From Burkholderia sp. USMB20 (GTDB lineage: Bacteria; Pseudomonadota; Gammaproteobacteria; Burkholderiales; Burkholderiaceae): a stretch of DNA of 64,000 nt. The stretch is taken from contig NZ_JTAN02000001.1 of NCBI RefSeq assembly GCF_000949135.2, positions 1 through 64,000 of the forward strand, read 5' to 3'. The notes below the pieces were generated by a model that made no database searches, was not told the DNA's origin, and was given only the letters and a program-made list of their open reading frames with translations. The position numbers and the translations under genes were made by a program. How positions within the stretch are numbered: position 1 is the first letter of the stretch; every line of letters starts with the position of its first letter. Shown piece after piece: positions 60,774 to 64,000 of this stretch.

Positions 60774-62243
60774 ATGAGCACCGTTCAGGAAACCCTGGCA
60801 CTGAAAGATCCGTCGCTGTTCCGCCAGCAGGCGTATGTCAACGGCGAATGGCAAGGCGCGGCGAACGGCGAGTCGTTCGAGGTCCGCAACCCGGCAACCG
60901 GCGGCCTGCTCGGCACCGTGCCGGCGATGGGCACGGCCGAGACGCGCCACGCAATCGAGGCCGCGAACGCCGCATGGCCGGCATGGCGCAAGAAGACCGC
61001 GAAGGAGCGCGCGGCGATCCTGCGCAAGTGGCACGACCTGATGATGGAAAACGCCGACGACCTCGCGCTGATCCTGACCACCGAGCAGGGCAAGTCGCTC
61101 GCCGAGGCGAAGGGCGAGATCGGCTACGCGGCGTCGTTCCTCGAGTGGTTCGCGGAGGAAGGCAAGCGCGTGTACGGCGACACGATCCCGACGCCGGCGA
61201 GCGACAAGCGCATCGTCGTGACGAAGGAAGCGATCGGCGTGTGCGCGGCGATCACGCCGTGGAATTTCCCGGCGGCGATGATCACCCGCAAGGTCGGCCC
61301 GGCGCTCGCGGCAGGCTGCCCGATCGTCGTGAAGCCGGCTGAAGCGACGCCGTTCTCGGCCCTCGCGATGGCCGTGCTGGCCGAACGCGCGGGCGTGCCG
61401 GCCGGCGTGTTCAGCGTCGTCACCGGCGACCCGAAGGCGATCGGCGGCGAGCTGACGTCGAACCCGATCGTGCGCAAGCTGTCGTTCACCGGCTCGACGC
61501 CGGTCGGCCGCCTGCTGATGTCGCAATGCGCGGCGACGGTCAAGAAGGTGTCGCTGGAACTCGGCGGCAACGCACCGTTCATCGTGTTCGACGACGCCGA
61601 TCTCGATGCCGCCGTGCAGGGCGCGATCGCATCGAAGTACCGCAACAGCGGCCAGACGTGCGTGTGCACGAACCGCTTCTACGTGCACGAAGCCGTGTAC
61701 GACCAGTTCGCGCAGAAGCTCGCGGCGGCGGTCGGCCAGCTGAAGGTCGGCCGCGGCACGGAGCCGGGCGTCACGCAAGGTCCGCTGATCAACGAAGCGG
61801 CCGTGCTGAAGGTCGAGGCGCACATCGAGGACGCGCTCGCGAAGGGCGCGACCGTCGTGACGGGCGGCAAGCGCCACGCGCTCGGCCACGGCTTCTTCGA
61901 GCCGACCGTGCTGACGGGCGTCACGCCGGCGATGAAGGTCGCGAAGGAAGAGACGTTCGGGCCGCTCGCGCCGCTGTTCAAGTTCGGCAGCGACGACGAG
62001 GTGATCCGCCTCGCGAACGACACCGAGTTCGGTCTCGCCGCGTACTTCTACAGCCGCGACATCGGCCGCGTGTGGAAGGTCGCCGAAGCGCTCGAGTACG
62101 GGATGGTCGGCGTGAACACGGGCCTGATCTCGAACGAAGTCGCGCCGTTCGGCGGCGTCAAGCAGTCGGGCCTCGGCCGTGAAGGCTCGCACTACGGCAT
62201 CGACGACTACGTCGTGATCAAGTACCTCTGCCTCGCCGTCTGA
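60774..62243 (+). CDS. gabD: succinate-semialdehyde dehydrogenase (NADP+)
   Basis: 489 residues, aldehyde dehydrogenase. It oxidises succinate semialdehyde to succinate. Key segments are ITPWNFPAAMITRKVGPALAAGC, FTGSTPVG, ELGGNAPFIVFDDAD and the catalytic Cys296 in SGQTCVCTNR, including the CxC pair of GabD. The ATG at 60774 gives the usual GabD length. The second gene of the gab unit. Confidence 0.94.
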   Translation: MSTVQETLALKDPSLFRQQAYVNGEWQGAANGESFEVRNPATGGLLGTVPAMGTAETRHAIEAANAAWPAWRKKTAKERAAILRKWHDLMMENADDLALILTTEQGKSLAEAKGEIGYAASFLEWFAEEGKRVYGDTIPTPASDKRIVVTKEAIGVCAAITPWNFPAAMITRKVGPALAAGCPIVVKPAEATPFSALAMAVLAERAGVPAGVFSVVTGDPKAIGGELTSNPIVRKLSFTGSTPVGRLLMSQCAATVKKVSLELGGNAPFIVFDDADLDAAVQGAIASKYRNSGQTCVCTNRFYVHEAVYDQFAQKLAAAVGQLKVGRGTEPGVTQGPLINEAAVLKVEAHIEDALAKGATVVTGGKRHALGHGFFEPTVLTGVTPAMKVAKEETFGPLAPLFKFGSDDEVIRLANDTEFGLAAYFYSRDIGRVWKVAEALEYGMVGVNTGLISNEVAPFGGVKQSGLGREGSHYGIDDYVVIKYLCLAV

Positions 62244-62276
62244 CGGTTCGGGGCCTGGCGCTTCGGCGACAGGCCC

Positions 62277-62304
62277 TGACCGCCCGGCCGGAACCGGGCG
62301 GTCA
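62277..62304 (+). terminator. hairpin after gabD
   Basis: A perfect 11-bp stem TGACCGCCCGG (62277-62287 with 62294-62304) with a CCGGAA loop. No T-run follows, so it may be an inefficient or Rho-assisted end of the gab transcript. Confidence 0.45.
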
Positions 62305-62324
62305 CGACGCGGGCCGGTACCTCC

Positions 62325-62347
62325 TCTCCGCCGTGCCCGCGTCACCT
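62325..62347 (+). repeat. left copy of 23-bp direct repeat
   Basis: TCTCCGCCGTGC...GTCACCT, identical over 23 bp to 63597-63619. The two copies bracket the unrecognised gene and its leader, as would follow insertion or duplication of the module. Confidence 0.75.
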
Positions 62348-62610
62348 TGCCGTGCGCGATGTCGGCACGCGTTCCGTGCGCGACGTCGATGCCGCATCGG
62401 CCAAACGTCATGCCGTTCGGCAATTTCGTTCAAGTCTCATTTCTCGTTCCGCTGCCAGCCGCTAGATTGAGCGTTCCACCTCGATCCGGTTTGCCTGCGC
62501 ATGAACAGTTCCTCCATCCGCCCGACCTGCGTATCCCCCGCGCACCGCGCCCTCGTCGCGCTTCCTCGCACCCGTCCCGGCATCGCGCCCCGCACGAAGG
62601 GAGCCCGCAC

Positions 62611-63558
62611 ATGAGCGTCGGATCAGCCGATCGTCGTACGTGCCCGCCCGAGGAAAAGCGCAGCGGGCCGAGCAATCACCAGCCGTTCAACGTCGTCTAC
62701 GACGGGCCCGCGCTCGGCGAGCACCGGATGGACGTGCGTGACCTCGCACCGGTGCTGCTCGCGATCGCCGACCTGTTCTCGTCCGCCAACAAGGAACTCA
62801 ATGGCGACCACTCCGAGGTTCGTCTCGAGGTCAGGGGCGGCTTCAAGGCCGGCTCGTTCCATGCAGAGCTGATCTTCGTCCAGTCGCTCGCGAGCCAGAT
62901 CCGCGACCTGTTCGCCGGGCCGAACGCCAATGCGTTCAGCAACGCACCGGCAATCCTCGCCGCATTGGGGATCATCGGTGGCGGCGGGCTGATCGGCCTC
63001 ATTCGCACGCTGCGCGGGCGCAAACCGCATCGCACCGAGCCGGACGGAGCGCATGTCAGGATCTGGATGTCGGAGCAGGAATGCTTCGTCGTCGATGAAC
63101 CCATCGTCCGGCTGTATCGGAACCGGGCCGTTCGCGTCAACCTGCAGAAAATGCTCTCGCCGCTCGAACATGACGGCATCGACAGCTTCGGCATCGTCCG
63201 CGACGACATCGTCGAACTCTCGATCGAACGCGACGAACTCGGTACGTTCGCGAGCAGCGACGATCCCGGCGAAATCGTCACCGACACGATCGCACTCAAG
63301 ATGTTGAAGCTCGAATCCGTCGTGTTCAAGGACGGCAACAAATGGCGCGTGCACGACGGCACGTCCGCGTTCTATGCGTCGCTGGACGACGAACGGTTCA
63401 TCGCGAAGATCGATGCCGGCGAGCGCTTCGGAAAGGGCGACGTGCTGGTCGTCGATCTGCGTCAGACGCAGATCGTCACCGACGACGGGCTTCGCAACGA
63501 ATACCGGATCGTCACGGTTCGCGAGCACCGTGCGCCGTTGCAACCGGCGCTGATTTGA
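62611..63558 (+). CDS. protein of unknown function in a repeat-bounded module
   Basis: 315 residues, family not named. AAGGGAG precedes the ATG at 62611. N-terminal domain about 25-105 (NVVYDGPALGEHRMDVRDLAPVLLAIADLFSSANKEL), a Gly-rich hydrophobic segment about 110-130 (AILAALGIIGGGGLIGLIRTL) that may insert in a membrane, and a strand-rich C-terminal half with two similar-looking blocks (VDEPIVRLYRNRAVRVN; IVTDDGLRNEYRIVTVREH). Similar accessory-genome proteins of unknown role exist, as I recall. Codon choice is more relaxed than in gabTD. Acquired function (defence or stress) is only a guess. Confidence 0.75.
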   Translation: MSVGSADRRTCPPEEKRSGPSNHQPFNVVYDGPALGEHRMDVRDLAPVLLAIADLFSSANKELNGDHSEVRLEVRGGFKAGSFHAELIFVQSLASQIRDLFAGPNANAFSNAPAILAALGIIGGGGLIGLIRTLRGRKPHRTEPDGAHVRIWMSEQECFVVDEPIVRLYRNRAVRVNLQKMLSPLEHDGIDSFGIVRDDIVELSIERDELGTFASSDDPGEIVTDTIALKMLKLESVVFKDGNKWRVHDGTSAFYASLDDERFIAKIDAGERFGKGDVLVVDLRQTQIVTDDGLRNEYRIVTVREHRAPLQPALI

Positions 63559-63596
63559 TCTGCGCCCCCCCGTGGAGGTGACGCGCGGGCCGCGCG

Positions 63597-63619
63597 TCTC
63601 CGCCGTGCCCGCGTCACCT
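63597..63619 (+). repeat. right copy of 23-bp direct repeat
   Basis: Exact second copy of the repeat at 62325-62347, located 38 bp after the stop of the unrecognised gene and just before the end of the chemoreceptor gene. Confidence 0.75.
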
Positions 63620-63632
63620 GCCTTGCCCGCCT

Positions 63633-64000
63633 TCAACGAAACACGTTCACCGCATCCACAAGCCGCGTCGCCTGCTGCTTCAGGCTTTCCGACGCCGCCG
63701 CGCTCTGCTCGACCAGCGCCGCGTTCTGCTGCGTGATGTTGTCCAGATGCACGACCGCCTGGTCGACCTGCGCAACCCCGGTGCTCTGCTCGGCCGTCGA
63801 CGAGCTGATCTCCGCGATCAGGTCCGACACGCGCTTCACCTGCGTGACGATGTCCTCCATCGTCTTGCCCGCGCCGTCGACGATCCGTGCGCCCGACTCG
63901 ACCCGCTCGACACTCGCGCCGATCAGTGTCTTGATTTCCTTCGCCGCGTTCGCGCTGCGCTGCGCGAGCGCCCGCACCTCGCCGGCGACCACCGCGAAGC
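63633..64000 (-). CDS. methyl-accepting chemotaxis protein, C-terminal part
   Basis: The window holds about 122 C-terminal residues; the gene continues beyond 64000. The signalling hairpin tip FAVVAGEVRALAQRSANAAKEIKTLI is followed by a long coiled coil with methylation-type Gln/Glu pairs (ISSSTAEQSTGVAQVDQAV) and ends VDAVNVFR without a CheR-docking pentapeptide. It belongs to inner-membrane chemoreceptors; its ligand domain is outside the window. Confidence 0.9.
   Translation of the reverse strand, partial: FAVVAGEVRALAQRSANAAKEIKTLIGASVERVESGARIVDGAGKTMEDIVTQVKRVSDLIAEISSSTAEQSTGVAQVDQAVVHLDNITQQNAALVEQSAAASESLKQQATRLVDAVNVFR

Follow-up and report, generated by a model that had tools for sequence, protein, structure and literature searches.

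What kind of gene occupies the gap between gabD and a convergent gene at the end of the 64,000-nt stretch of DNA analyzed here (the window; Burkholderia sp. USMB20, contig NZ_JTAN02000001.1), and how does it move in and out of that gap? The gap contains an open reading frame (ORF) of 315 residues on the forward strand (62,611–63,558; product P0001), which lies between two copies of a direct repeat and which the original prediction had singled out as an acquired gene with no named family and an undescribed function. The reading that we favor, and consider rather likely to be correct, is that the module is a one-gene accessory cassette, composed of a leader, the ORF, and a duplicated hairpin, that resides in an insertion hotspot and encodes a solo abortive-infection defense protein of the type of gp29 from mycobacteriophage MichelleMyBell. 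Because the gene is related to gp29 and lies between duplicated hairpins at a site that is empty or otherwise filled in relatives, we regard it as a probable exchangeable anti-phage gene and not as a gene of an unknown kind.

Architecture of the module

The 23-bp repeat, TCTCCGCCGTGCCCGCGTCACCT, is present as two exact copies in the window, at 62,325–62,347 and 63,597–63,619, a pair far above chance expectation (mean of 0.00 in 100 shuffles). As had been described, the left copy follows gabD, beginning 82 nt past its stop codon (62,243), and the right copy lies 38 nt past the stop codon of the ORF. The likeness of the two ends continues imperfectly into a stem-loop half, which measures 38 nt at the left end (62,310–62,347) and 34 nt at the right end (63,586–63,619), with the exact repeat as the final 23 nt of each; the repeat is the best-kept part of a duplicated stem-loop half located after gabD. 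Together with the sequence upstream, both copies form a possible stem-loop, at neither of which a terminator was called by a simple scan. Between the repeats are a 263-nt leader (62,348–62,610, forward strand) and the ORF, the ATG of which is preceded by GGGAG; the other listed frames of at least 80 residues in this interval overlap the ORF or its leader. No recombinase of the module's own was found among these frames, of which the gene itself was the only one searched as a recombinase. The module has a direct repeat at both ends and a single copy in an empty site, an arrangement shared with transposon- or integrase-borne elements. Its base composition is less GC-biased than its surroundings, as anticipated (64.8% GC versus a mean of 67.7%, standard deviation 2.3, for equal-length stretches of the window; third-position GC of 82.9% in the gene versus 92.6% in gabD), but the difference is weak, with 9.9% of the stretches lower still.

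The left flank, gabD (60,774–62,243, forward strand), encodes succinate-semialdehyde dehydrogenase and is conserved in filled and empty genomes. The right flank (63,633–63,999, reverse strand) is the 3′ end of a convergent gene that is cut by the end of the window and that, from its sequence, we take to be of the methyl-accepting chemotaxis type. The window resembles the Burkholderia cepacia complex, matching a B. cenocepacia replicon at 94.6% (96% of a 6.3-kb query) and B. arboris at 95.3% (72%).

Occupancy of the gabD site across the genus

The site was surveyed in 65 genomes of the same genus, and 52 sites were inspected (13 were left out, as the gabD end matched only partly), a site being scored as empty when fewer than 200 nt separate gabD from the chemotaxis gene. 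Nine inspected sites carry the gene, 27 are empty, and 16 contain other DNA. Close relatives of the gene (71–89% identity) occur in 9 of the 65 genomes and are found at the gabD site in all nine. In the nearest genome compared (G001), which is 97.5% identical to the window along the gabT–gabD stretch and 94.4% identical at the end of the chemotaxis gene, the gene is absent and a single repeat copy is observed between these flanks. A repeat search of six genomes, allowing up to 3 mismatches, shows one copy at the site in the empty genomes G001, G041, and G046 and one on either side of the gene in G010, G013, and G047; G001 has one further place elsewhere, with 3 mismatches. Empty sites are therefore present among relatives and the repeat is not a common intergenic sequence in these six genomes, contrary to the two outcomes that the original prediction had named as speaking against itself.

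Other cargo identified at the site by family search includes PAAR and M35-peptidase genes (G028), Tle3 (G006), and TerD (G019); the remaining occupied sites, by reading of their frames, contain similar PAAR-type frames, decayed forms, TerD-like clusters, and insertion-sequence-like remains. The gap at 62,244–63,632 and its counterparts (L101–L118) constitute an insertion hotspot in the genus, a single chromosomal spot at which a candidate defense gene and type VI cargo alternate. The leader stretch 62,390–62,540 matches at the gabD site in 17 of the 65 genomes, 8 with the gene and 9 without, and elsewhere gives two 32-nt matches only, among the matches listed. The nine gene-less genomes that keep the leader carry other or decayed cargo. 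Because the leader is common to both sets, the content after it has been swapped or lost.

In L009 and several of L102–L118, two features recur around the site: two tandem chemotaxis genes, each ∼94% identical in G001 to the gene end in the window, that follow it, and short pieces resembling the end of such a gene inside several occupied sites.

Exchange and possible gain or loss of the gene

Gene divergence hardly tracks gabD divergence (45 pairs, r of 0.21). Between the window and G047, divergence is 2.3% in gabD and 15.1% in the gene; between G036 and G034, the corresponding values are 3.3% and 3.9%; and the gene of G011 differs by 26–28% at a gabD divergence of 2.9–4.7%. Alleles have therefore been exchanged, and exchange at the gabD site between lineages is well supported. 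Part of the spread may be vertical, because the gene label is more clustered on the gabD tree than in shuffles: in a count that leaves out empty genomes and sets genomes with the gene against those with PAAR and ter cargo, the label requires 4 changes, 2 of them forced by well-supported branches, compared with a mean of 7.6 changes in shuffles, of which 3 of 500 are as low.

A second stem-loop copy, with at most 5 substitutions, is present in 7 of the 10 filled sites (window included) and, at a looser limit, in 8, the eighth (G024) being 71% alike; none was found in the filled sites of G003 and G011, even at the looser limit. G010 and G013 each have a pair of copies with no difference over 37 nt. 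Likeness between left and right copies is 90% when both come from one genome and 85% when they come from different genomes, but concerted change of the two copies is only suggested by these values because a likeness of 89% is also found among the left copies of different genomes. The left hairpin of G011 is followed by a 44-nt piece that resembles the end of the chemotaxis gene, and the insertion point in this genome therefore differs.

The duplicated hairpins bear on an alternative history, in which the gene is older at the site and was deleted from the genomes that are now empty when the two hairpin copies recombined, without recent acquisition in the window lineage. The two copies would provide a ready substrate for deletion, and both their presence in most filled sites and their identity in G010 and G013 are consistent with such a loss, as are the empty site of G001, a genome that is 98% identical to the window in gabD, and the persistence of the leader in genomes with other or decayed cargo. 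When the gabD tree is rooted at its midpoint, however, the side branches that part first (G042, G060, G049, G063, G064, and G023; G014 and G025) lack the gene, with the root used for drawing only and many branches weak, and both the gene divergences out of step with gabD and the different left junction of G011 argue against simple loss. This history deserves to be kept in view, although we judge that it probably does not apply. Three well-supported sister pairs in the gabD tree each join a filled genome with an empty one (window/G001, G013/G061, and G034/G062), and between gain in the window lineage and loss in G001 by recombination between the repeats the tree favors neither.

Family membership of P0001 and relationship to gp29

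P0001 has no match in Pfam. It is matched strongly by the NCBIfam family NF053583, LAPAL_fam (265.5 bits versus a curated cut-off of 60, residues 26–307), by the PADLOC model PDC-S42 (E of 1.3e-84, residues 22–310, nearly the whole model), and by phrog_3243 of PHROGs, a group of unknown function (E of 1.2e-63). The earlier statement that the gene has no named family is thus incorrect. The module is indeed discrete, exchanged, and missing from many relatives, but it is not undescribed: by sequence comparison, the protein is filed as a member of LAPAL_fam/PDC-S42 and as a homologue of gp29. The PDC-S42 model is also matched by all eight relatives tried, from phages and varied bacteria. PDC stands for phage defense candidate in the available excerpt of PMC11514479; PDC-S42 differs from an established system in being a candidate class only, with a model that has no description, and its name had no match in the literature text searched.

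The link to MichelleMyBell is observed at several levels. A single-sequence tblastn search with P0001 at a loose limit reaches gene 29 of MichelleMyBell together with its kin, and P0001 also matches a Vibrio phage protein (E of 2e-6) with the record note MMB_gp29_gp30__gp29, in which MMB_gp29_gp30 is presumably the DefenseFinder name. MichelleMyBell gp29 itself matches the PDC-S42 model (E of 1.6e-16, residues 39–297), and alignment of the family profile with gp29 by hhalign (E of 6.8e-13) extends over residues 35–310, nearly the full length, including the OB-like C-terminal part. By these profile comparisons, P0001 is a distant homologue of gp29 along nearly its whole length, and three separately catalogued names, the "structural protein" LAPAL_fam, PADLOC PDC-S42, and MichelleMyBell gp29, are joined in one family. 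Excerpts of the published work describe the MichelleMyBell system as typical of abortive infection, with adsorption and injection still taking place (PMC6426606), gp29 as toxic, and gp30 as a putative membrane protein (PMC11856565); they also report that the MichelleMyBell prophage cuts the plating of phage Tweety by four to five orders and that Tweety gp54 can be tuned against this prophage (PMC8549241).

The main differences between the window gene and the gp29/gp30 system are that the window gene is chromosomal rather than located in a prophage, that P0001 has a hydrophobic segment of its own, and that gp30 has no visible counterpart. A gp30-like small membrane ORF was looked for next to the gene in the window and was not found, and the window is therefore not filed as a two-gene MMB system. 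In a scan of the longest downstream ORF of 40–130 residues at each of 158 loci, a membrane-like ORF is seen at six, one of which is MichelleMyBell itself.

Similar to gp29 and gp30, the phage relatives of the window gene are found in a temperate-phage setting near int and repressor genes. The phage records matching at E ≤1e-3 number six and come from three distinct phages (A2, vB_LmoS_188, and PMBT6), in all of which the gene is an annotated neighbor of the integrase gene; in vB_LmoS_188, it also adjoins a putative superinfection immunity gene. Hosts of the temperate phages that carry the family include Lactobacillus, Listeria, and Bifidobacterium. Eight plasmid records match as well, 6 of them over at least 80% of the length, and the NCBIfam cut-off is exceeded in 36 of 299 genomes drawn evenly across the bacterial family. 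In wider scans, genome contigs yielded 146 relatives and viral contigs 134, with 80 of each retained, and neighborhoods were counted at 156 loci with called frames. At 35 of these loci, many of them near-identical contigs, a CI-type repressor gene is encoded upstream on the same strand at a distance of no more than 400 nt; when each distinct central protein is counted once, the repressor cluster is found at 28 of 117. Intact solo copies are also present on the chromosomes of Caballeronia, Paraburkholderia, and Trinickia, at several distinct sites (10 loci listed). The union of the three catalogued names suggests a defensive role for this family, which extends over phages, plasmids, and many bacterial genomes.

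Predicted domains and proposed mechanism

P0001 is composed of an N-terminal α/β region with a YDGPAL..DLAPVL motif (residues 24–91; 62,680–62,883), a Gly-rich hydrophobic segment predicted from Kyte-Doolittle values and the structure model (residues 112–134; 62,944–63,012), and a C-terminal domain that is predicted by the structure model to adopt an OB fold (residues 221–312; 63,271–63,546), all read on the forward strand. The Gly-rich hydrophobic center and the strand-rich C-terminal half that had been anticipated from the translation agree with this model. The top 19-residue Kyte-Doolittle mean is 2.06, at residues 113–131, compared with a best value of 1.09 in gp29. In the predicted OB domain, FKDGNKWRVHDG and residues W245, D260, and D277 are invariant in 81 sequences. 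Likeness to OB folds of the SSB/RPA type (Rim1, RPA70N, and HIN domains) is in fold only, at 13% identity, and the first two thirds of P0001 fall outside the match.

We propose that the C-terminal OB-type domain would encounter nucleic acid or nucleoprotein that a phage produces during infection and that the hydrophobic segment, standing in for the separate membrane protein gp30, would carry a membrane-linked toxic response by which phage production stops. The hairpins, in turn, may mediate gain and loss of the cassette. In such a solo version, the candidate sensing and killing parts would be placed in one protein.

Several observations weigh against this proposal. The best Foldseek E value for the OB match is 4.5e-3, and the match is a likeness of fold and no proof of DNA binding. 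A membrane anchor is uncertain because the structure model splits the hydrophobic stretch into two short helices; moreover, a hydrophobic mean of 1.6 is reached anywhere in only 41 of 81 family sequences. Identity of P0001 to gp29 is about 18%, and tblastn from P0001 meets gp29 in the C-terminal part only (E of 0.02). The protein gp29 is described together with gp30, no counterpart of which was found beside the window gene. Finally, several solo chromosomal copies have ordinary-looking neighbors, and portal, terminase, head, protease, or neck genes are near 18 of the 156 loci, a set that is Mu-like by reading.

Were the protein instead to act by superinfection exclusion at the membrane, it would block DNA entry of other phages rather than abort infection; the prophage position beside int and cI and the hydrophobic segment would fit such a role, but for MichelleMyBell, the phage of the homologue, both adsorption and injection reportedly take place (excerpt of PMC6426606), and we consider exclusion unlikely. 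A role in the secretion or competition cargo of the hotspot, as a type VI immunity or effector accessory rather than in phage defense, is less likely again: relatives bear PAAR, M35-peptidase, or Tle3 genes at the same site and behind the same leader, whereas no secretion gene adjoins the window gene and the family is carried by temperate phages that infect Lactobacillus, Listeria, and Bifidobacterium, which are not known to have type VI systems. The idea that P0001 is a virion component and its gene a chromosomal remnant of a Mu-like prophage, to which the name of NF053583 ("LAPAL motif-containing putative phage structural protein") and the virion genes near 18 loci would point, is very improbable in light of the gabD and chemotaxis neighbors in the window, the placement by int or cI, outside the structural operon, in A2, vB_LmoS_188, PMBT6, and the CI-repressor contigs, the intact solo copies at several chromosomal sites, and the reported defense function of gp29 (excerpts of PMC6426606 and PMC11856565). 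The NCBI name, which is at odds with the chromosomal and int/cI contexts, probably reflects the Mu-like neighborhoods only and may mislead annotation.

Flanking duplications at other family loci

Exact repeats of at least 17 nt flank 4 of 71 other family loci versus 0 of 223 control frames; L129, which has such repeats, is the G047 site again. In L194 (5,323–6,362), a 27-nt repeat corresponds to the 3′ end of an MmeI-type restriction gene beside the family member, and in L187 (5,922–6,912), a 34-nt repeat precedes a methylase frame, and a third copy is located further downstream. In L192 (5,809–7,020), from Stenotrophomonas, the gene lies between two imperfect ∼50-nt hairpin copies in a layout like that of the window. 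The recurrence of flanking duplications is suggestive only. An extended form of the cassette model, which we regard as doubtful, is that of a minimal mobile defense unit, in which a gp29-type gene, with an OB-type sensor fused to a built-in membrane effector and independent of gp30, would enter intergenic gaps repeatedly by duplicating its landing sequence, without a recombinase of its own. The landing sequences would be a terminator-like hairpin in Burkholderia and Stenotrophomonas and the ends of restriction-methylase genes in two other lineages.

A second family member, mostly 30–42% identical to the window protein, is present elsewhere in 27 of the 65 genomes of the genus (L022–L042). Its sequence suggests frequent decay because the match is partial, in pieces, or interrupted by a stop codon in 9 of these 27 genomes. 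In Burkholderia, the second member is followed by a small same-strand frame (L161, L165, L167, L168, L171, L172, and L180) that is 71–92% alike between loci and not membrane-like.
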